Shown here piece after piece: positions 23,783-38,952 of a stretch of DNA of 64,000 nucleotides. The stretch comes from Bradyrhizobium sp. 186 (GTDB lineage: Bacteria; Pseudomonadota; Alphaproteobacteria; Rhizobiales; Xanthobacteraceae). The translations under genes were made by a program, and so were the position numbers. The notes under the pieces are model-generated. The model was not told the origin of the DNA and made no database searches. It saw only the letters and a program-made list of their open reading frames with translations. Where the stretch lies: NCBI RefSeq assembly GCF_023101685.1, contig NZ_CP082164.1, forward strand, positions 806,001 to 870,000. Direction: 5' to 3'. The stretch's first letter is position 1. Every line of letters begins with the position of its first letter.

Positions 23783-24802
23783 TCAGTTCTTTTTGAGCCT
23801 GCCGGCGAGCTGCTGGCCCAGAATCGCGACCTGCCTTGCGCCGTGCGGCACGAGGTAGATGACGAGGAACAAGAGCACGCCGAACACGGCGCCGGAGAGG
23901 CCCTTGGAGATGCCCTCCGCGATGTTCGGCACGAAGATGATAAAAGCGGCGCCGACGATCGAGCCGGGCAGCCAGCCCACACCGCCGACGACCATGCCGA
24001 GGAACAGCGAGATCGCGAGCGTGATGGTGTAGCTGTCGGGCGCGACGAACTGTACCGCGATGGCGCCGAGCGAGCCGGCGATGCCGGTGACGGCCGCGGA
24101 CACGCCGAAGGCCAGCGTCTTGTATAGCGCGACGTCGACGCCCATGGCAGACGCGGCGATCTCGTTGTCGCGGATCGCCATGAAGGCGCGGCCCGAACGG
24201 GAGCGCAGCAGGTTCACCGAGAAGATGTAGATCGCTATCACGACGACGAGCGTGAAGTAGTACAGCCACATGTCCTGCGACATCGGCAGGCCGAACGGCG
24301 CATCGGGCTTGGTGACGACGAGGCCCTGCACGCCGCCGGTCCAGTGCTCGAGGAAGTTCAGCTTCAACAGCTGCGGCATGGCGGTGGCCAGCGCGAAGGT
24401 CGCGAGCGCGAGATAGACGCCGGAGAGCCGCAGCGCCGGCTGCCCGAACAGGAAGCCGAAGCCGAAGCAGACCACGCCGGCGATCGGCAGGGTCAGGGCG
24501 TAGTTGATGTTGAAGTGCTCCATCAGCACCGCCGTCGTATAGGCACCGACGGCGTAGAACGCGCTCTGGCCGAGCGAGAACTGGCCGGAGCCGCCGGTCA
24601 GGATGTTCAGCGCCAGCACCGCGAGCCCGTAGATCAGAAGCATCGTCATCTGGAAGATGATGAAGTTCTTGACGAAGACGGGCATGATGAGCAGCGCCGC
24701 GAGCACCACCAGCGAGGTGCCGGTGCCCAGCGTCATCGCCCGCTTCGGAACGGCCTCGACCGCCTGGTGGCCTTCTGCAACGACTTCTTCTGCAGCGCTC
24801 AT
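23783..24802 (-). CDS. ABC transporter permease, LivM type
   Basis: The ATG at 24802 (MSAAEEVVAEGHQAVEAVPK) gives 339 residues; a TTG two codons earlier overlaps the livH stop. The N-terminal 25 residues are polar, followed by about nine membrane spans. LivM marks are LNILTGGSGQFSLGQSAFYA (about residues 66-85), RLSGVYLALATFALATAMPQ and the cytoplasmic loop RSRSGRAFMAIRDNEIAASA that contacts the ATPase. It is a separate permease here, in contrast to the fused version at 13133. It lies between livH and the binding-protein genes. Confidence 0.92.
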   Translation of the reverse strand: MSAAEEVVAEGHQAVEAVPKRAMTLGTGTSLVVLAALLIMPVFVKNFIIFQMTMLLIYGLAVLALNILTGGSGQFSLGQSAFYAVGAYTTAVLMEHFNINYALTLPIAGVVCFGFGFLFGQPALRLSGVYLALATFALATAMPQLLKLNFLEHWTGGVQGLVVTKPDAPFGLPMSQDMWLYYFTLVVVIAIYIFSVNLLRSRSGRAFMAIRDNEIAASAMGVDVALYKTLAFGVSAAVTGIAGSLGAIAVQFVAPDSYTITLAISLFLGMVVGGVGWLPGSIVGAAFIIFVPNIAEGISKGLSGAVFGVLLFLVIYLVPHGARQVAILGQQLAGRLKKN

Positions 24803-24804
24803 GA

Positions 24805-25683
24805 TCAAACTCGCTTGACGATTTGCCGGCCGAACAGGCCAGCGGGTTTGACGACCAGGACGGAGATGATCAGCGCGAGCGCGATCGGAAGTTTCAGCTC
24901 GTTGCCGACGCCGGGGATGTAGGTGCCGGCGAGGTTCTCGAAGACTCCGACCAGGAAGCCGCCGACAACGGCGCCGAACGGGCTGGTCAGTCCGCCGAGC
25001 ACGGCCGCGGCGAAGCCGTAGATCAGCACGCCGCCCATCATGTTGGGCTCCAGGAACACGACGGGAGCGATCAGCATGCCGGCGATCGCGCCGATCGCGG
25101 ATGCCATGCCCCAGCCCAGCGCAATCATCCAGGAGGTGTTGATGCCGACGAGACGCGCCGATTCAGGCACCGACGCGGCGGCGCGCATGGCGAGGCCGAT
25201 CTTGGTGTACTGGAAGAAGAAATAGAGGCCGAGCAAGAGCAGCACGGTGACGCCAATCATGCCGGCCTGATGGGTCGAGATCAGCTGGCTGCCCAGGAAC
25301 GGCGCGGAGCCGAACGGGGTCGGATACTGCTTGATGGTGAAGTCCCAGATCAGGCCGGCCGAGGAGTTGATGATCGCAAACAGCGCGATGAAGCCGGCAA
25401 CGTTGGTCAGGATCGGCGCCTTGGCGAGCGGCTTGAACAAAATGCGCTCGATCGCGATGCCGCCGACGAAGGAAAGGGCCAGCGTGAGCACGAAGGCGGC
25501 CCAATAGGGTATGCCCCACTGCATCAACTGCCAGGAGATGAAGGTCGAGAACATCGCCATCTCGCCTTGCGCGAAGTTGAGATGGTCGATCGCCTGGTAG
25601 ATCATGACGACGGCGAGCGCCATGCAGGCGTAGATTGCGCCGGTGGCAATCCCAGCCAGGACTTGGTTGGTGAAAAGCTCCAT
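24805..25683 (-). CDS. ABC transporter permease, LivH type
   Basis: This 292-residue membrane protein has the standard LivH length and start (MELFTNQVLAGIATGAIYAC), the AQGEMAMFSTF-like segment in LNFAQGEMAMFSTFISWQLM, and a C-terminal loop SVPESARLVGINTSWMIALG that carries the ATPase-coupling region. It begins 12 bases after livF and ends two bases before livM. Together with LivM it forms the channel for the four tandem binding proteins. Confidence 0.92.
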   Translation of the reverse strand: MELFTNQVLAGIATGAIYACMALAVVMIYQAIDHLNFAQGEMAMFSTFISWQLMQWGIPYWAAFVLTLALSFVGGIAIERILFKPLAKAPILTNVAGFIALFAIINSSAGLIWDFTIKQYPTPFGSAPFLGSQLISTHQAGMIGVTVLLLLGLYFFFQYTKIGLAMRAAASVPESARLVGINTSWMIALGWGMASAIGAIAGMLIAPVVFLEPNMMGGVLIYGFAAAVLGGLTSPFGAVVGGFLVGVFENLAGTYIPGVGNELKLPIALALIISVLVVKPAGLFGRQIVKRV

Positions 25684-25695
25684 CGTGCCGGCTCC

Positions 25696-26409
25696 TCAGT
25701 AACCCAGATAGGATTTGCGGATTTCTTCGTTGTTCGCGATGTCCTTGGCGTTGCCCGACATCACGATGCGGCCGGTCTCGATCACGTACGCATGGTCGGC
25801 GAGTTCGAGCGCGAGTTGGGCGTTCTGCTCGACCACCAGGATCGACACCTTGTCCTCGCGATTGATCTTGCCGAGGATGCCGAACAGGTCGCGAACGACC
25901 AGCGGCGCGAGGCCGAAGGACGGCTCGTCCAGCAGCATCAGGCGCGGCCGCAGCATCAGCGCGCGGGCGACCGCGAGCATCTGCTGCTCGCCGCCGGAGA
26001 GCGTGCCGGCCTGCTGGGTATGCCGCTGCTTCAAGACCGGGAAATGCGCATACATGCGCTCGATGTCGGAGACGATGCTGGCACTATCCTTGCGGGTGAT
26101 GGCGCCAAGCTGGAGGTTCTCCTCCACCGTCATGGTGGTGAAGGTGCCGCGGCCCTGCGGCACGTGAGCGATGCCGAACCGCACGATGCTCTCGGTGGAG
26201 CGGTTGTTCAGCGGCTTGCCGTCGAACTCGATCCCGCCGGTGGAGCGCACCATGTTGCAGATCGCGCGCAGCGTGGTGGTCTTGCCGGCGCCGTTGGCGC
26301 CCAAAAGCGTCGTCAGCGAACCTTCGCTGAGTGAGAAGGACAGGCCGTGGAGCGCTTGGACCTGGCCGTAATAGGCGCGCAGGTCCTTGACGTTGAGCAG
26401 CGTCGTCAT
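25696..26409 (-). CDS. ABC transporter ATP-binding protein, LivF type
   Basis: This 237-residue ATPase has Walker A GANGAGKTTTLRAI (about residues 36-49), signature LSGGEQQMLAVARALM and Walker B LMLLDEPSFGLAP, ending GNAKDIANNEEIRKSYLGY, the usual LivF tail. Its start overlaps the livG stop by four bases. It drives the transporter served by the tandem binding proteins. Confidence 0.93.
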   Translation of the reverse strand: MTTLLNVKDLRAYYGQVQALHGLSFSLSEGSLTTLLGANGAGKTTTLRAICNMVRSTGGIEFDGKPLNNRSTESIVRFGIAHVPQGRGTFTTMTVEENLQLGAITRKDSASIVSDIERMYAHFPVLKQRHTQQAGTLSGGEQQMLAVARALMLRPRLMLLDEPSFGLAPLVVRDLFGILGKINREDKVSILVVEQNAQLALELADHAYVIETGRIVMSGNAKDIANNEEIRKSYLGY

Positions 26410-27203
26410 TGGTCCTTGCTCCCGAGATAGGCCTTGATGACGTCGGGATCGGCCTGCACCTGGGCGGGCGTGCCTTCCGCAAGCTTCTTGCCGAAGTTCA
26501 GCGCGACGACGTGGTCGGCGATCGACATCACGAGACCCATGTGGTGCTCGACCAGCAGCACGGTCATGTGGCGGTCATCGCGGATGCGGCGGATGAGGTC
26601 GCCGAGCACATAGACTTCCTCATGGTTGAGGCCGCCGGCCGGCTCGTCGAGCAAGAGGATCTTCGGATCGGCCGCGAGTGCCCGCGCCAATTCGACGCGC
26701 TTCTGCGTGCCGAAAGGCAGGCCGGACACGATGGTGTGGGCGACGTCCTCGAGTTTGAGATAAGCGAGGATCTCGTGCACCTTGTTGTTGACGCTGGTCT
26801 CGCTGCGCCGGACCCAGGCGAGTTTCAGCGAGTCGCTGATGATGTCGCTCGAGGTCTTCGAATGCGCACCGACGCGGACATTGTCCATCACCGAGAGGTT
26901 CGGAAACAGCGCCACGTTCTGGAAGGTGCGGCCGATGCCGATCTCGGCGATCCGGTGCGGAGGCCGCGACAGGATGCTCACGCCCTCCATCAGGATGTCG
27001 CCGGACGACGGCTGATAAAGCCGGGACAGGCAATTGAAGAGCGTGGTCTTGCCGGCGCCGTTCGGGCCGATCAATCCCAGGATCTGGCCCTTGTGCATGT
27101 CAAACGACACGCCGTTGAGCGCAACGATGCCGCCGAACACGACGCTGACGTCGCGAACCGCGAGCAGGGGCGATGTCCCCTGCGCGAGCTGTGCCTGCGT
27201 CAT
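26406..27203 (-). CDS. ABC transporter ATP-binding protein, LivG type
   Basis: The ATG at 27203 (MTQAQLAQGTSPLLAVRDVS) gives 265 residues, close to the family norm; an in-frame start at 27266 would add 21 residues and nearly touch the IclR stop. It has Walker A GPNGAGKTTLFNCL, signature FGTQKRVELARALA and Walker B ILLLDEPAGGLNHEE, and the long LivG insert. The typical DPDVIKAYLG ending is present. It is the second gene after the IclR regulator, with which it may be co-transcribed. Confidence 0.92.
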   Translation of the reverse strand: MTQAQLAQGTSPLLAVRDVSVVFGGIVALNGVSFDMHKGQILGLIGPNGAGKTTLFNCLSRLYQPSSGDILMEGVSILSRPPHRIAEIGIGRTFQNVALFPNLSVMDNVRVGAHSKTSSDIISDSLKLAWVRRSETSVNNKVHEILAYLKLEDVAHTIVSGLPFGTQKRVELARALAADPKILLLDEPAGGLNHEEVYVLGDLIRRIRDDRHMTVLLVEHHMGLVMSIADHVVALNFGKKLAEGTPAQVQADPDVIKAYLGSKDQ

Positions 27204-27269
27204 CTCGTCTCGCCCACGTTGTTCAGTGGGCGGAGGGGCGGTGCGAACCGGTCCCTGCAATGACAAGAG

Positions 27270-28169
27270 CTATCTGATCCCCTCGGCCACACGCGCAACT
27301 TTTCCTCCTGATTTCAGCTTTTTGCTGTCTTGTTTTTTTGAATGCGGCATCAGACCCCCGAGTGCCGCTTCGATGTTCCTTACCATCGTCAGCAGACGCG
27401 GTCCAATGTCAGTGATCAATCGCTCTTCCGTGAAACGGAATGCCGGTGCGCCGCAGTTGAAGGCGTAGGGACCGGTTCCGTCGTTCAGTTTGAGCGCGAC
27501 TCCGGCGGCGCCGATATCGTCGTGCCAGTCGCCGACCGAAATCGCAAAGCCGTGTTTCGCGACGGTTTCGCCGGAACGTTCCAGTCCGTCGCGCATCTTG
27601 GGCCAGCGGCTGCCGTAATGTTCGCGCAGAACGCGCGACAGTTCTGCGCGATCACCTTCGTCGAGCGCCCAGAAATAGGCGCGACCCATCGCGCTGGTTG
27701 CAATCGGCACGCGAGAGCCGACGTCAAGTTGAACACCGACCGTCTCGCTGCCGCGGCTCTGGCCGAAATAGATCATGCTGTGGCGGTCGCGACCGCCGAT
27801 CGCGACCGCGCCGCCGGTCGCACGCATCATGTCCTCGCGAAACGGTTCGGACAAATGCCGAACGCCGAGATTGGCTAGCGCCGCGTAGCCAAGCGCCATC
27901 GCGGCAGGCGCAAGCTGATACTTCTCGAAGCGGGGAACCGGCGTCAGATAACCGAGCTTCGTCAATGTGTAGGTCAATCGCGAGATGGTTGGCTTGGGCA
28001 GGTTGGTACGGGCCGCGATCTCCTGATTGCCGAGAAGTCCGTCGCTGGGTTGGAATGCGCGCAATACATCAAGTCCGCGGGAAAGCGCGACGACGAAATT
28101 CCGATCGGTCGCAGTCTTCTTTCCTGTACGCTTCATCCCTGATCTGCTCTTGCGCGGAGTCGTTGACAA
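27270..28169 (-). CDS. IclR-family transcriptional regulator
   Basis: The frame begins with TTG at 28169 (299 residues) or ATG at 28136 (MKRTGKKTATDRNFVVALSR, 288 residues). The N-terminal winged helix has SRGLDVLRAFQPSDGLLGNQ, then EIAARTNLPKPTISRLTYTL, typical of IclR. The C-terminal effector domain includes VPIATSAMGRAYFWAL. A lysine-rich C-terminal tail is unusual. It lies upstream of and in line with livG-livF-livH-livM and the binding proteins, and divergent from the pim-type operon, with the perfect palindrome at 28203-28221 between. It probably controls both directions in response to a dicarboxylate or its CoA ester. Confidence 0.9.
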   Translation of the reverse strand: MSTTPRKSRSGMKRTGKKTATDRNFVVALSRGLDVLRAFQPSDGLLGNQEIAARTNLPKPTISRLTYTLTKLGYLTPVPRFEKYQLAPAAMALGYAALANLGVRHLSEPFREDMMRATGGAVAIGGRDRHSMIYFGQSRGSETVGVQLDVGSRVPIATSAMGRAYFWALDEGDRAELSRVLREHYGSRWPKMRDGLERSGETVAKHGFAISVGDWHDDIGAAGVALKLNDGTGPYAFNCGAPAFRFTEERLITDIGPRLLTMVRNIEAALGGLMPHSKKQDSKKLKSGGKVARVAEGIR

Positions 28170-28265: not shown

Positions 28266-30362
<2,097 letters not shown>

Positions 30363-30500: not shown

Positions 30501-30648
30501 GGTCAGGGAGGGGGGTAGCCCCGGGCGAGGTCAGTGTTTGCGGCTACCGCCTTCCCCAACCCTTCCCCGCAAGGGGGAAGGGAGCCCTTCCCCTTGTGCC
30601 CACCTCACGCGAATCTGTCGCGACAACTTTGCACAGTATCGGTCGCCT

Positions 30649-32331
30649 ATGACTCACCCCGGCGAACAGTTTTACCCCGAGGGCGTGCGTTGGGACGACA
30701 CCATCGTCCAGGGCACGCTTCCCGACCTCTTGTCGAAAGCTGCCGCCGATTACGGCCCGCGCACCGCGCTGGAGTTTCGCGATCGTCCGATCAGCTACAC
30801 CGAACTCGCCGGGATGGCCGAGCGCGCCGCCGCGGCGTTCCTTCGTGCCGGCTACGGCAAGAACAGCTCCATCGCGCTGTTCCTCGGCAACACGCCCGAT
30901 CATCCCGTGAGTTTCTTCGGCGCGCTCAAGGCCGGCGCCCGCGTTGCGCATCTCTCCCCGCTCGACGGCGAGATCGCGCTGACGCACAAGGTCTCGGATT
31001 CCGGCTCGCGGGTGCTGGTCACCTCGAACCTTGCGGCATTGCTGCCGACCGCGCTGAAGTTTCTTGAGAAGGGCCTGATCGACCGCCTGGTCGTCTGCGA
31101 GGACGACAATTGGGGCAAGGTCGGCACGCCGCAGGCCGCGATCCCCGCCGATCCCCGCATCGTCACCTTCAAAACCTTCGTCGAGGGCGCCGCCGCGCCG
31201 GCGCAGTGGCCGCAGATGACGGCGGATGACGTCGCGCTGCTGCAATATACCGGCGGCACCACCGGCCTGCCCAAGGGGGCGATGCTCACGCACGGCAACC
31301 TCACCTCGGCCGTGTCGATCTACGACGTCTGGGGCAAGCCGTCGCGTGCGACCCGCGGCGAAATCATCGAGCGCGTGATCTGCGTGCTGCCGCTGTTCCA
31401 CATCTACGCGCTCACGGTCGTGCTGTTGTCCTCGCTCAGCCGCGGCAATCTGATCTCGCTCCATCAGCGTTTTGATGTCGAAGCGGTGATGCGCGACATC
31501 GAAATCAAGCACGCGACGTACTTCCCGGGCGTGCCGACGATGTGGATCGCGATCGCGGCCCTGCCCGATCTCGACAAGCGCGACTTCTCCTCGCTTGCCA
31601 CCATCGGCTCCGGCGGCGCGCCGCTGCCGGTGGAGATCGCCAACTTCTTCGAGCGCAAGATCGGCAAGAAGCTGAAAAGCGGCTGGGGCATGACCGAGAC
31701 CTGCTCGCCCGGCACCGGCCATCCGCCGACAGGACCGGACAAGCCCGGCTCGATCGGCCTGATGCTGCCCGGCATCGAGCTCGACGTCGTCGCGCTGGAC
31801 AATCCGACGAAGGTACTGCCATCAGGCGAAGTCGGCGAGATCCGCATCAAGGGCCCGAACGTCACCAGGGGCTATTGGAACAAGCCGAAGGAATCCGTAG
31901 AATCCTTTGCCGACGGCCGCTTCCTCACCGGAGACATCGGCTACGTCGACGCGGACGGCTATTTCTTCCTGGTCGACCGCAAGAAGGACATGATCATCTC
32001 CGGCGGCTTCAACGTCTATCCGCAGATGATCGAGCAGGCGATCTACACCATTGCCGGCGTGCACGAGGTGATCGTGCTCGGCATTCCCGACCAGTATCGC
32101 GGCGAGGCCGCCAAGGCCTTCATCAAGCTCAGGCCGGACGCGAAGCCGTTCTCGCTCGACGAGCTGCGCGCGCAGCTCACCGGCAAGCTCGGCAAGCACG
32201 AATTGCCCGCAGAGGTCGAGTTCGTCGACGATCTGCCGCGCACGCCGGTCGGTAAGCTGTCGCGCCACGAATTGCGCCAGCAGCAGAAACCGTCACAACC
32301 CACCCAATTCGCATCAGGAGGTCGCTCTTGA
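30649..32331 (+). CDS. pimA: Dicarboxylate-CoA ligase (acyl-CoA synthetase)
   Basis: The ATG at 30649 (MTHPGEQFYPEGVRWDDTIV) gives 560 residues. The frame is open for 200 bases upstream, but that is repeat DNA. Motifs in order: QYTGGTTGLPKGAMLTHGN near residue 196, GWGMTETCSPGTGHPP near 344, GYVDADGYFFLVDRKKDMII near 427, and PRTPVGKLSRHELR with the catalytic lysine near 537. It is related to long-chain acyl-CoA ligases and, by operon position, to PimA, which activates dicarboxylic acids. The TTG of the residual pimB reading frame overlaps its stop. Confidence 0.87.
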   Translation: MTHPGEQFYPEGVRWDDTIVQGTLPDLLSKAAADYGPRTALEFRDRPISYTELAGMAERAAAAFLRAGYGKNSSIALFLGNTPDHPVSFFGALKAGARVAHLSPLDGEIALTHKVSDSGSRVLVTSNLAALLPTALKFLEKGLIDRLVVCEDDNWGKVGTPQAAIPADPRIVTFKTFVEGAAAPAQWPQMTADDVALLQYTGGTTGLPKGAMLTHGNLTSAVSIYDVWGKPSRATRGEIIERVICVLPLFHIYALTVVLLSSLSRGNLISLHQRFDVEAVMRDIEIKHATYFPGVPTMWIAIAALPDLDKRDFSSLATIGSGGAPLPVEIANFFERKIGKKLKSGWGMTETCSPGTGHPPTGPDKPGSIGLMLPGIELDVVALDNPTKVLPSGEVGEIRIKGPNVTRGYWNKPKESVESFADGRFLTGDIGYVDADGYFFLVDRKKDMIISGGFNVYPQMIEQAIYTIAGVHEVIVLGIPDQYRGEAAKAFIKLRPDAKPFSLDELRAQLTGKLGKHELPAEVEFVDDLPRTPVGKLSRHELRQQQKPSQPTQFASGGRS

Positions 32332-32423
32332 CCGACGCCGTCATCGTTTCCACCGCCCGCACCCCGATCGGCAAGGCCTACCGCGGCATGGGCGCGGCGG
32401 GTTTGTTTGAGGTGTTGCAGTAG
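32328..32423 (+). pseudogene. pimB: Residual thiolase gene with internal in-frame deletion (pimB remnant)
   Basis: A TTG start overlapping the pimA stop, behind AGGAGG, opens a 31-codon frame. Its first 20 residues, after the initiator TDAVIVSTARTPIGKAYRG, are the canonical N terminus of acetyl-CoA acyltransferases. The next residues, MGAAGLFEVLQ then stop, are the canonical thiolase C terminus (normally after CVGGG). About 360 codons, including the active-site cysteine and both histidine regions, are missing with the frame preserved. A palindromic repeat begins three bases after the stop. The product cannot be a thiolase. Chance resemblance at both ends is very unlikely; an assembly error remains possible. 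Confidence 0.85.
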
Positions 32424-32425
32424 TC

Positions 32426-32545
32426 GTCGTCCCGGCGAAGGCCGGGACCCATACTCCGCAGCCGGAGTTCGGGGCACAGACGGCAATCGCCTTCGCGAGA
32501 CAACGACGATTAGTGGTTATGGGTCCCGGCCTTCGCCGGGACGAC
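32426..32545. repeat. Palindromic repeat, family R1
   Basis: GTCGTCCCGGCGAAGGCCGG then GACCCATAC is mirrored by TTATGGGTCCCGGCCTTCGC then CGGGACGAC. Same design and similar arm spacing as 4434-4558. It lies directly after the pimB remnant. Confidence 0.88.
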
Positions 32546-32569
32546 AAGGGAAGCTCAGAGGAGGATCCG

Positions 32570-33760
32570 ATGGATCTCGCATTCACGAAAGAAGAGCAGG
32601 CGTTTCGCGAGGAAGTGCGGGAGTTCTTCCGCGGCAACGTACCGCCGGACACGCGGCGCAAGCTGGTCGAGGGCCGTCACCTCTCGAAGGACGAGATGGT
32701 GACGTGGTGGCGTATCCTCAACAAGAAGGGTTGGGGCACCAGCCACTGGCCCAAACAATATGGCGGCACCGGCTGGACATCCGTGCAGCACTACATCTTC
32801 AACGAGGAGCTGCAGTCCTATCCGGCGCCGCAGCCGCTCGCCTTCGGCGTCAGCATGGTCGGCCCTGTCATCTACACCTTCGGCAATAAAGAGCAGAAGA
32901 AGCAGTATCTGCCGCGCATCGCCAATGTCGACGATTGGTGGTGCCAGGGCTTCTCCGAGCCCGGCTCCGGCTCCGACCTTGCCTCGCTCAAGACCAAAGC
33001 CGAGCGCAAGGGCGACAAGTGGATCATCAACGGCCAGAAGACCTGGACCACGCTGGCGCAGCACGCCGACATGATCTTCTGCCTCTGCCGCACCGATCCC
33101 AGCGCCAAGAAGCAGATGGGTATCTCCTTCATCGTCTTCAGCATGAAGTCGAAGGGCGTCACGGTGCGTCCGATCCAGACCATCGACGGCGGCGTCGAGG
33201 TCAACGAAGTGTTCTTCGACGACGTCGAGGTGCCCGTCGAGAACCTGATCGGCGAGGAGAACAAGGGCTGGGACTACGCAAAATTCCTGCTCGGCAATGA
33301 GCGCACCGGCATCGCCCGGGTCGGCGTCTCCAAGGAGCGGCTGCGTCGTATTCGCGACTTGGCCTCCAAGGTCGAATCCGGCGGCAAGCCGATCATCCAG
33401 GACGCCGCGTTCCGCGAGAAGCTCGCCGCTTGCGAGATCGAGCTGAAGGCGCTCGAGCTGACCCAACTCCGCGTCGTCGCGGACGAAGGCAAGCACGGCA
33501 AGGGCAAGCCCAATCCGGCGTCGTCCGTGCTGAAGATCAAGGGCTCCGAGATCCAGCAGACCACGACCGAACTGCTGATGGAAGTGATCGGCCCGTTCGC
33601 CGCGCCCTACGACGTGCACGGCGACGACGGCTCGAACGAAGCCATGGACTGGACCGCCCAGATCGCGCCGAGCTACTTCAACAACCGCAAGGTCTCGATC
33701 TACGGCGGCTCCAACGAGATCCAGCGCAACATCATCGCCAAGGCGGTGCTGGGGTTGTGA
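32570..33760 (+). CDS. pimC: Acyl-CoA dehydrogenase, pimeloyl-CoA dehydrogenase large-subunit type
   Basis: The ATG at 32570 follows GAGGAGG and gives 396 residues. It has the acyl-CoA dehydrogenase layout: N-terminal helices, a central beta domain with WWCQGFSEPGSGSDLASLKT (about residues 122-141) and WIINGQKTWTTLAQHADMIF, and a C-terminal helical domain ending SIYGGSNEIQRNIIAKAVLG. It pairs with the gene at 33851 in the manner of heteromeric dehydrogenases such as PimC-PimD. It would introduce the double bond into pimeloyl-CoA and similar dicarboxylyl-CoA esters. Confidence 0.87.
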   Translation: MDLAFTKEEQAFREEVREFFRGNVPPDTRRKLVEGRHLSKDEMVTWWRILNKKGWGTSHWPKQYGGTGWTSVQHYIFNEELQSYPAPQPLAFGVSMVGPVIYTFGNKEQKKQYLPRIANVDDWWCQGFSEPGSGSDLASLKTKAERKGDKWIINGQKTWTTLAQHADMIFCLCRTDPSAKKQMGISFIVFSMKSKGVTVRPIQTIDGGVEVNEVFFDDVEVPVENLIGEENKGWDYAKFLLGNERTGIARVGVSKERLRRIRDLASKVESGGKPIIQDAAFREKLAACEIELKALELTQLRVVADEGKHGKGKPNPASSVLKIKGSEIQQTTTELLMEVIGPFAAPYDVHGDDGSNEAMDWTAQIAPSYFNNRKVSIYGGSNEIQRNIIAKAVLGL

Positions 33761-33814: not shown

Positions 33815-33850
33815 TCTCCGCGCAGAGACTTGTTACTTGAGGAAACAGAG

Positions 33851-34993
33851 ATGGATTTTGATTTGAACGAGGAGCAGCGGCTTCTCAAGGACAGCATCGA
33901 CGGCCTGCTGACCGATTCCTATGATTTCGAGAGCCGCAAGAAATACATGAAGGAGAAGGGCGGCTGGAGCAAAGCCGTCTGGCTCAAGCTCGCCGATCAG
34001 GGCCTGCTCGGTCTGCCCTTCGCGGAGGCCGATGGCGGCTTCGGCGGCGGCGGCGTCGAGACCATGATCGTGATGGAAGCGCTCGGCAAGGCTCTCGTGC
34101 TCGAGCCTTATCTCGCGACCGTGGTGATCGGCGGCGGCTTCCTCCGTCATGCCGGCACCGATGCGCAGAAGGCGGCTCACGTGCCCGGCATCGTCGACGG
34201 CAGCAAGACGCTGGCGTTTGCCCAGCTCGAGAAGAATTCGCGCTACGATCTCTTCGACGTCACCACGACGGCCAAGAAGAAGGGCGACGGTTGGGTGATC
34301 GACGGCGAGAAATTCGTCGTGCTCAACGGCGAGAACGCCGACACGCTTCTAGTCACCGCGCGCACCAAGGGTGACCGACGCGACAAGAGCGGCATCGGCG
34401 TGTTCCTGGTGCCGGCGAACGCCAAGGGCGTGACCAAGAAGTCGTATCCGACCCAGGACGGCCTGCACGCCGCCGACATTACCTTCACCGGCGTCGAGGT
34501 CGGCGCGGATGCTGCGCTCGGCAATCCCGACGACTCGCTTGCGCTGATCGAACGCGTGGTGGACGAAGCCCGCGTCGCGCTCTGCGCCGAGGCGGTGGGC
34601 CTGATGGACGAGTCGCTCAAGACCACCGTCGAGTACATCAAGACACGCAAACAGTTCGGCGTCGCGATTGGCTCGTTCCAGTCGCTTCAGCACCGCGCCT
34701 CCGACATGTTCGTCGCCGCCGAGCAGGCCCGCTCGATGTCGATGTTCGCGACCATGGCGGGCGATTTCGAGGACGCCAAGGAGCGCTCCAACGCGATCGC
34801 CGCGGCCAAGGTGCAGATAGGCAAGTCGCTGAAATTCGTCGGCCAGCAGGCGATCCAACTCCACGGCGGCATCGGCATGACCATGGAGGCGAAGATCGGC
34901 CACTACTTCAAGCGCCTGACCATGATCGAAAACAGCTTTGGCGACACCGACTATCACCAGCGTCGCGTGGCGGATGGTGGCGGGTTGATCTGA
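33851..34993 (+). CDS. pimD: Acyl-CoA dehydrogenase, pimeloyl-CoA dehydrogenase small-subunit type
   Basis: The ATG at 33851 gives 380 residues (MDFDLNEEQRLLKDSIDGLL). The dehydrogenase fold is visible in FAEADGGFGGGGVETMIVME, the substrate-binding strand LAFAQLEKNSRYDLFDVTTT and the C-terminal FVGQQAIQLHGGIGMTMEAK, which carries a glutamate in the region expected for this subgroup. The sequence is clearly distinct from PimC, so this is a partner subunit and not a recent duplicate. It is separated from pimC by a short hairpin repeat. Confidence 0.87.
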   Translation: MDFDLNEEQRLLKDSIDGLLTDSYDFESRKKYMKEKGGWSKAVWLKLADQGLLGLPFAEADGGFGGGGVETMIVMEALGKALVLEPYLATVVIGGGFLRHAGTDAQKAAHVPGIVDGSKTLAFAQLEKNSRYDLFDVTTTAKKKGDGWVIDGEKFVVLNGENADTLLVTARTKGDRRDKSGIGVFLVPANAKGVTKKSYPTQDGLHAADITFTGVEVGADAALGNPDDSLALIERVVDEARVALCAEAVGLMDESLKTTVEYIKTRKQFGVAIGSFQSLQHRASDMFVAAEQARSMSMFATMAGDFEDAKERSNAIAAAKVQIGKSLKFVGQQAIQLHGGIGMTMEAKIGHYFKRLTMIENSFGDTDYHQRRVADGGGLI

Positions 34994-35148: not shown

Positions 35149-35922
35149 ATGAAAAACACCCCGTTCGATCTCACCGGAAAAGTTGCAATCGTCACCGGCT
35201 CCAGCCGCGGCATCGGCCGCTCCTCCGCCGAATTGCTCGCAAAACTCGGCGCCAAGGTCGTGATCTCCTCGCGCAAAGCGGAGGCCTGCAAGGAAGTCGC
35301 GGACGGCATTAATGCTGCCGGCGGCGATGCCATCGTCATCCCCTGCAACATCGCCCGCAAAGACGAGGTCGAGGCGCTGATCGCAGGCGCAACCAGGCAC
35401 TACGGCAAGATCGACATCCTCGTCTGCAACGCCGCGGTGAACCCGTATTACGGCCCGCTGCTCGACATCACCGACGAAGCTTTCGACAAGATCATGGGCA
35501 GTAACGTCAAGAGCAACATCTGGCTCTCCGCGCTCGCGATCCCGCAGATGGCCGAACGCGGTAGCGGCTCGGTCGTCATCATCTCCTCGATCGGCGGCTT
35601 GCGCGGCTCCACCGTGATCGGCGCCTACGGCATCTCCAAAGCCGCAGATTTCGCGCTGTGCCGCTCGCTCGCCGGTGAATGGGGCCCGAAGGGCGTCCGC
35701 GTCAATTGCATCGCGCCCGGCCTCGTCAAGACCGATTTCGCCCGCGCGCTGTGGGAAGACGAAGCCCTCCTCAAGCGCCGCACCGCCACCACACCCCTTC
35801 GCCGCATCGGCGAACCCGACGAAATCGCCGGCGCCGTCGCCTACCTCGCCTCCGATGCGTCGAGCTTCATGACTGGACAAACCATCGTCATCGACGGCGG
35901 CGTCACCACGGCGGCAGTGTAG
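35149..35922 (+). CDS. SDR-family oxidoreductase
   Basis: This 257-residue short-chain dehydrogenase has TGSSRGIGRSSAELL at residues 15-29, NAAV in mid protein, and the catalytic YGISK near residue 162, with the C-terminal FMTGQTIVIDGGVT typical of the classical group. Overall it resembles DHRS4-like or FabG-like enzymes. It follows pimD with a repeat between and lies in the same direction, so it may belong to the dicarboxylate operon, but no specific substrate is evident. The ATG at 35149 gives a normal length. Confidence 0.85.
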   Translation: MKNTPFDLTGKVAIVTGSSRGIGRSSAELLAKLGAKVVISSRKAEACKEVADGINAAGGDAIVIPCNIARKDEVEALIAGATRHYGKIDILVCNAAVNPYYGPLLDITDEAFDKIMGSNVKSNIWLSALAIPQMAERGSGSVVIISSIGGLRGSTVIGAYGISKAADFALCRSLAGEWGPKGVRVNCIAPGLVKTDFARALWEDEALLKRRTATTPLRRIGEPDEIAGAVAYLASDASSFMTGQTIVIDGGVTTAAV

Positions 35923-37765: not shown

Positions 37766-37911
37766 CGCGAGGTCCATCGATCGCAAGTGGTGCTAATCCC
37801 GAACGACCTATCTTCGCCAAACCTGATCCTGTGGTTGATGGTGTGGACGGCCCCCTACGGCATCAGTGTGCCAGAATGAGGTTGTCAGAAACTCATTCGC
37901 AGGAGCCGCCC

Positions 37912-38952
37912 GTGAACCAGATTATCCGCATTGGAATGGATACGTCGAAGTATATTTTTGTGCTGCATGGGGTTGATGAGGATGAGCGGCCGGTCTTGCG
38001 CAAGAAGCTGTCGCGCAAGCAGGTGCTCGAGTTCTTCACCAAGTTGCCGCCGACCGTGATCGGGATGGAGGCCTGCGGGGCTTCGCAACATTGGGCGCGA
38101 GAGCTTCGCCAGCTCGGCCACGAGGTGAAGCTGATGGCGCCGCAACTGGTGAAGCCCTACGTGTCGCGGAACAAGAACGACGGACGGGACGCGGAAGGGC
38201 TGTGCGAGGCGATGAGCCGACCGACCATGCGGTTCGTGCCGGTGAAGAGCGCCGAGCAGCAGGCCGCATTGATGCTGACGGGCATCCGCGACGGGCTGAT
38301 CGCCCGGCGCACTCAGTTGACCAATACGATCCGCGGCCATGCGGCGGAGTTTGGCCTGATTGCGCCCAAGGGGCTGGACAAGATCGAGCCGTTGCTGGCG
38401 CAGATTGCGCAGGACGAGACGCTTCCCGTCCTGGCGCGCGAGCTGTTTGTCGTGCTGGGCCGCGAATGCGCCAAGCTCGAGAGCGAGCTGGAGGCGATCG
38501 AAGCCAGGCTGATGGCCTGGCACCGTGGCGATGCCATGGGCCGGCGTTTGGCGCAGATCCCCTCGGTCGGTCCGATCGTTGCCACCGCGCTGGTGATGAA
38601 GACGCCGGATCCGCGGGCGTTCCGCTCCGGTCGTCACTTTGCGGCCTGGGTGGGATTGACGCCCAAGGACCACTCCACCGCCGGCAAGACCAGGCTTGGC
38701 AAGATCACCCGGGCGGGCGACGAGGACTTGAGGCGGCTGCTCGTGATCGGGGCCACGGCCGTGATCCAGCAGGCCCGACGAGGCCGCGGCCAACACTCAC
38801 GTTGGCTGCTGGCGCTGATTGCGCGCAAGCCGCCGAAGCTTGCGGCCGTGGCGCTCGCCAACAAGGTGGCCCGCATCGCCTGGAAGCTCATGGTGACGGG
38901 AGAGAGTTACGATGCGGCGCGGTTGAATGCCGCTGCGGCAGGGGCCGCCTAA
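37912..38952 (+). CDS. IS110-family DEDD transposase
   Basis: A GTG at 37912 behind AGGAG gives 346 residues, the typical size. The RuvC-like N-terminal domain shows GMDTSKYIFVLHG (first Asp), VIGMEACGASQHWAREL (Glu) and RNKNDGRDAEGLCEAM (Asp pair), making the DEDD set. The C-terminal Tnp20 domain contains IPSVGPIVATALVM, HFAAWVGLTPKDHSTAGKTR and ITRAGDEDLRRLLV. The gene is intact, so the element may still be active. Members of this family use a structured RNA made from their own noncoding end to choose target and donor DNA. Confidence 0.93.
   Translation: MNQIIRIGMDTSKYIFVLHGVDEDERPVLRKKLSRKQVLEFFTKLPPTVIGMEACGASQHWARELRQLGHEVKLMAPQLVKPYVSRNKNDGRDAEGLCEAMSRPTMRFVPVKSAEQQAALMLTGIRDGLIARRTQLTNTIRGHAAEFGLIAPKGLDKIEPLLAQIAQDETLPVLARELFVVLGRECAKLESELEAIEARLMAWHRGDAMGRRLAQIPSVGPIVATALVMKTPDPRAFRSGRHFAAWVGLTPKDHSTAGKTRLGKITRAGDEDLRRLLVIGATAVIQQARRGRGQHSRWLLALIARKPPKLAAVALANKVARIAWKLMVTGESYDAARLNAAAAGAA

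Follow-up and report, generated by a model that had tools for sequence, protein, structure and literature searches.

The pim operon of Bradyrhizobium sp. 186 (G000) has lost its own thiolase gene. The frame at 32328–32423 on the forward strand of the window (the whole stretch of 64,000 nucleotides that was analysed) is a young remnant of pimB, created by an in-frame internal deletion, and this deletion is one of many separate pimB losses in Bradyrhizobium. We consider it likely that a PimB-type thiolase whose gene lies at another place in the genome has taken over thiolysis in trans.

The pim operon of Rhodopseudomonas palustris has the gene order pimFABCDE and was reportedly described by Harrison and Harwood in 2005. 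An excerpt of one paper places a transporter next to it (PMC3223731). The G000 cluster resembles this operon in its order, pimF-A-(B)-C-D, in the adjoining ABC transporter and in the scores of pimA, pimC and pimD, which lie above curated cut-offs; it differs in that pimB is reduced to 31 codons, and no whole pimB was found at 68 of 140 loci in the genus. The transporter, of the branched-chain amino-acid type with two permeases and two ATPases, occupies 23783–27266 on the reverse strand. It is followed at 27270–28169, also on the reverse strand, by an IclR-type regulator (Pfam HTH_IclR and IclR_C) divergent from pimF. All remaining genes of the cluster lie on the forward strand. The pimF-like gene at 28266–30362 encodes a fused enoyl-CoA hydratase/3-hydroxyacyl-CoA dehydrogenase (Pfam ECH_1, 3HCDH_N and 3HCDH), for which FadB and FadJ are the best NCBIfam models, with scores under their cut-offs. 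Next come pimA, encoding a dicarboxylate–CoA ligase (30646–32331; TIGR03205, 1127 bits, cut-off 705.6), pimC, encoding the large subunit of pimeloyl-CoA dehydrogenase (32570–33760; TIGR03204, 891.5 bits, cut-off 623.85) and preceded by its own AGGAGG site, and pimD, encoding the small subunit (33848–34993; TIGR03203, 800 bits, cut-off 652.7). A short-chain dehydrogenase gene (35149–35922; Pfam adh_short_C2) ends the cluster. An IS110-family transposase gene lies downstream, at 37831–38952.

Beyond the 31-codon stump, no thiolase is encoded in the pim operon of G000. The preliminary description had claimed as much, and comparison with the loci of relatives bears it out; the downstream genes are intact, as it had also stated, the rest of the operon being open. 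Between the stump and pimC lies a palindromic dispersed repeat of about 125 bp (32424–32548), detected by self-search of the genome. At least 102 matching pieces occur on both strands of the same genome (40 of 116 candidates scored), and similar elements are seen, by eye, in many other pimA–pimC spacers.

The stump consists of the first 20 and the last 11 codons of pimB and stands in the same place as the intact gene, which has 395 codons in relatives, between pimA and pimC. It is translated as LTDAVIVSTARTPIGKAYRGMGAAGLFEVLQ, followed by a stop. Its TTG start overlaps the TGA stop of pimA at 32329–32331, and an AGGAGG ribosome-binding site lies upstream at 32316–32321 on the forward strand; both elements had been called intact earlier, and both can be read directly from the sequence at 32316–32331. 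Aligned to Bradyrhizobium sp. LTSP849 (L221), whose intact pimB has 395 codons, the stump splits best with 4 mismatches. The two ends meet in frame at GCGGCATG, a direct repeat of 8 bp, and 1,092 bp (364 codons) are gone. The repeat occupies 32383–32390 on the forward strand, and the same 8 bp are present at both break sites in the intact LTSP849 gene. Wherever the cut is placed inside the repeat, one mismatch falls 5′ and three fall 3′ of it; placing it 2 bp upstream of the repeat is equally good. The intact gene also has a 9-bp repeat between its two ends, which the deletion did not use.

Identity to LTSP849 pimB is 98% over 63 bp in the 5′ part and 93% over 41 bp in the 3′ part, and the local alignment scores of the stump against the two pimB ends (61 and 39) are well above the maxima of 20 shuffles (14 and 15). 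The thiolase-like character of both ends, and the in-frame internal deletion of ‘about 360’ codons proposed on that basis, are thereby substantiated, the loss amounting to 364 codons. As all four differences between the stump and LTSP849 pimB are synonymous, the deletion is recent. At E 0.01 no Pfam family is matched by the 31 residues, which is to be expected of a piece this short. The deletion itself probably arose by slippage or recombination between the two copies of GCGGCATG, and the frame would then have been kept by chance, with a likelihood of one in three.

The search for pimA and pimC covered 146 Bradyrhizobium genomes, among them G000. At least one of the two genes was found in 142 genomes, and both lie close together on one contig in 140. 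The interval between them is short in 68 of these linked loci, which lack a full pimB, and long in 72, of which 71 carry full PimB and one (G098) a frameshifted version. Pieces of pimB stand well above shuffled controls, a rough measure of 20 shuffles per locus, in six of the 68 short loci (G000, G013, G076, G042, G003 and G070). The other 62 score at most 14 against the pimB ends and at most 2 above their own shuffles. Two of the six clear stumps, those of G000 and G076, are in frame, a share equal to the chance expectation; the other four, judged by eye, are out of frame or have no start. Among named loci, 79 were readable within the best 80 of 307 PimA matches, which is not an even sample, and 27 of these 79 have no PimB between pimA and pimC. 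pimB is absent, for example, from entries for B. betae, B. yuanmingense, B. valentinum, B. cytisi, B. agreste and DOA9; entries that have it include B. japonicum SZCCT, B. niftali and B. stylosanthis. In addition to its pim-operon copy, G067 has a second pimB–pimC pair at G067:C26:4562-6512, with identities to the queries of 92% for pimB and 91% for pimC.

Of 20 loci fetched from other genera one was cut off and 19 could be read, and 18 of these have pimB upstream of pimC. A PimB-type thiolase is found, by coordinates, within 700 bp of pimC in 43 of the 51 PimC-bearing genomes outside the genus. Since other genera carry pimB at the locus, its presence is ancestral and the changes of state within Bradyrhizobium are mostly losses. 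A locus tree of 140 rows requires at least 19 changes of pimB state, 10 of them forced by starred branches, and addition of 18 outgroup rows brings the number to 20. The 158-tip tree omits L195, which is too short, and L192, which has no pimA; its outgroups are those of highest PimC identity, and the distant genomes G148, G163 and G204 are not among them. The nearest row to G000 is G013, also pimB-less but with a different stump, and the two may represent one shared loss or two events. In G180 (L308), which belongs to another genus, the PimB-type thiolase adjoining pimC is in two frames; G151 has a different pimC neighbourhood, and G203 has a PimB-type thiolase at the end of another contig.

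Selection on the remaining genes was assessed as pooled dN/dS in 13 pimB-less and 13 pimB-bearing neighbour pairs, over 194 codons of pimA and 199 codons of pimC. The pimA part gave 0.078 in pimB-less pairs versus 0.086 in pimB-bearing pairs, and the pimC part 0.081 versus 0.051, somewhat higher without pimB. No stops occur inside the compared parts in 158 genomes. These parts of pimA and pimC are under purifying selection in the absence of pimB, and the low dN/dS together with the lack of stops therefore indicates that the steps before thiolysis are retained. As selection persists without pimB, another thiolase probably serves. The preliminary description had said that another thiolase ‘must serve’ unless the pathway had changed; the substitution it named is the likeliest reading, with three other PimB-type thiolases (60–73% identical to PimB) in G000.

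Loss of pimB could instead reflect decay or change of the pathway, for instance towards substrates needing no thiolysis, rather than replacement of the enzyme. The raised pimC value in pimB-less pairs fits such a course, as does G218, a genome of another genus in which both pimA and pimB are missing at the locus. Set against this are dN/dS values near 0.08 for pimA and pimC, with no stop in the compared parts, and the presence of pimF, pimA, pimC and pimD in every named pimB-less locus that extends far enough. One clade, moreover, comprises 25 pimB-less rows, which suggests an old loss after which the other pim genes were kept. We therefore regard decay or change as unlikely.

It is very improbable that the stump has a function of its own, either as a translated 31-residue peptide, which had been raised earlier, or as a short leader that couples the translation of pimA and pimC. 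The frame is open, with an intact start, ribosome-binding site and stop, and in G076 too a short frame, of 19 codons, connects the start of pimB with its stop. These two in-frame stumps are, however, unlike in both length and sequence, all six clear stumps differ from one another, and the remaining 62 pimB-less loci hardly rise above their shuffles; pimC, furthermore, has its own GGAGG-type site in those pimB-less spacers that were seen whole. No function is needed to explain the 31-residue frame. That a full pimB exists in the strain and was dropped by the assembler is barely credible, because the 8-bp junction repeat is too short, far below read overlap, and other species have independent deletions of their own in pimB; the assembly, moreover, comprises 10.77 Mb in 2 contigs and holds no other copy of pimB, its best paralogs being 72–73% identical.

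G000 contains 18 Thiolase_N matches, 16 of them above the cut-off. Its three PimB-type thiolases are two copies of the 72–73% paralog, one on the chromosome and one on contig C2, and T60, an unlinked PimB-type thiolase about 60% identical to PimB. The designation T72 is used for any PimB-like gene of 70–82% identity outside the pim operon. In G000, G008 and G026, the three Bradyrhizobium loci examined, serA and serC are neighbours of T60. It has Cys, His and Cys at the aligned thiolase-motif positions, which we take to be the motifs usual for thiolases. The best model for T60 (522 bits) and for both G000 copies of T72 (614 and 603 bits) is NCBIfam NF005494, which describes PimB-type acetyl-CoA C-acyltransferases; intact PimB is a member by its cut-off of 615 (618.1 bits), whereas T60 and the T72 copies fall below it. 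T60 is the best candidate for replacing PimB, with a predicted role in thiolysis of 3-oxo-dicarboxyl-CoA.

Other sources of the missing activity were considered. A relocated pimB in G000 was rejected: the genome search that had been suggested as a check found no moved copy, the nearest thiolases being 72–73% identical to PimB, compared with 88–98% identity of the genus's pimB genes to the same query. A PimB-like gene of 80–82% identity occurs in 15 pimB-less genomes (16 loci), and in the six loci fetched, from five genomes, it has a PimC-like gene (about 54% identity) close by; on the basis of this neighbour it was taken as part of another cluster. T72 was rejected as the only backup, as 22 of the 68 pimB-less genomes are without it. 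Among plasmid records, 39 have some match to the operon and none covers 80% of it in one place.

Several further pim-like genes lie outside the operon. In G000 a parallel cluster with PimC-like, PimD-like and PimB-like (72–73%) genes is present in two copies, on the chromosome and on contig C2 (L215 4744-8278 and L216 4540-8079). The same genome has a second pimD–pimC pair (L217 7666-10057; G000:C1 at about 8.884–8.886 Mb), 77% and 83% identical, with no match to pimA or pimB above 45% identity in the surrounding 18 kb. G055 has a second T60-like gene (89%; L315 4078-5247), about 3.5 kb from a pimF-like gene near a contig end and far from pimA.

T60 was matched in 132 of the 146 genomes of the genus. 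It accompanies 66 of the 68 pimB-less linked loci, the two misses being assemblies that are 81% and 87% complete, and is unmatched in nine of the 72 pimB-bearing loci. The 11 linked-locus genomes without a T60 match are thus nine with pimB, one of them the frameshifted G098, and two that are incomplete. In G098 (L140) the frameshift lies near codon 70 of pimB, on a contig of 5,705 bases, and may be a sequencing error or a fresh loss. Six genomes have no linked pimA–pimC: pimB without T60 was found in G041 and G137, T60 without a PimB match in G033, G035 and G097, and neither in G101 (67% complete). Outside the genus, T60 was found in two of 114 genomes of the family (G189 and G218, of one genus). 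Both are pimB-less at the locus and have no PimB-type match elsewhere in the genome at E 1e-100, and serA and serC are absent beside T60 within the 9 kb fetched from each. In three genomes of distant genera (G148, G163 and G204), with PimC 62–66% identical, pimC directly follows pimF or pimA with no pimB between, and neither T60 nor a PimB-type thiolase was matched at E 1e-100; these three genomes, like G098, speak against replacement by T60.

When pimB loss was modelled with a rate dependent on T60, and T60 coded as unknown for G090 and G100, the LR was 34.1 over 158 tips, a value as high being reached in none of 60 simulations. Within Bradyrhizobium alone the LR for T60 was 11.5, a borderline result, as 6 of 100 simulations attained that value. 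T72 gave a similar LR of 11.4 in the genus, and T60 is therefore not singled out. A paired comparison of T60 with pimB loss gave 4 to 0, with 9 undecided (p 0.125). The distribution fits a backup enzyme, and which thiolase this is is not proven by it.

With the other pim enzymes apparently remaining under selection, thiolysis of the dicarboxyl-CoA intermediates would most likely take place in trans, through a PimB-type thiolase encoded elsewhere that acts on pim substrates and whose presence would make pimB dispensable. In G000 this thiolase may be the T60 gene product encoded beside serA–serC, and the two copies of the 72–73% paralog are possible helpers. More tentatively, T60, which is rare in the family outside Bradyrhizobium, might itself have made pimB dispensable and so triggered ten or more independent losses, leaving the last step permanently served from outside the operon.

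Cases in which a paralog takes over from a lost operon gene are already known. Redundant thiolases of beta-oxidation have been inferred by RB-TnSeq in dicarboxylate degraders, where 7 of 50 predicted thiolases were significant/specific, according to an excerpt of that study (PMC12543098). Those degraders, as the excerpt describes them, are beta-proteobacteria with fitness data, whereas the evidence in Bradyrhizobium is recurrent gene loss. Among the open papers matched by literature searches on the pim genes and on thiolase loss in Bradyrhizobium, the titles and opening lines of abstracts contain no report of pimB loss. The present case adds the same loss repeated many times within one genus, at stages that range from a recent in-frame stump to complete removal, together with a named candidate for the substitute. 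It also cautions that an operon gene that is missing does not mean that the pathway is missing. If T60 is indeed the substitute, the pim pathway of these bacteria would be one whose last step depends permanently on an enzyme encoded outside its operon.
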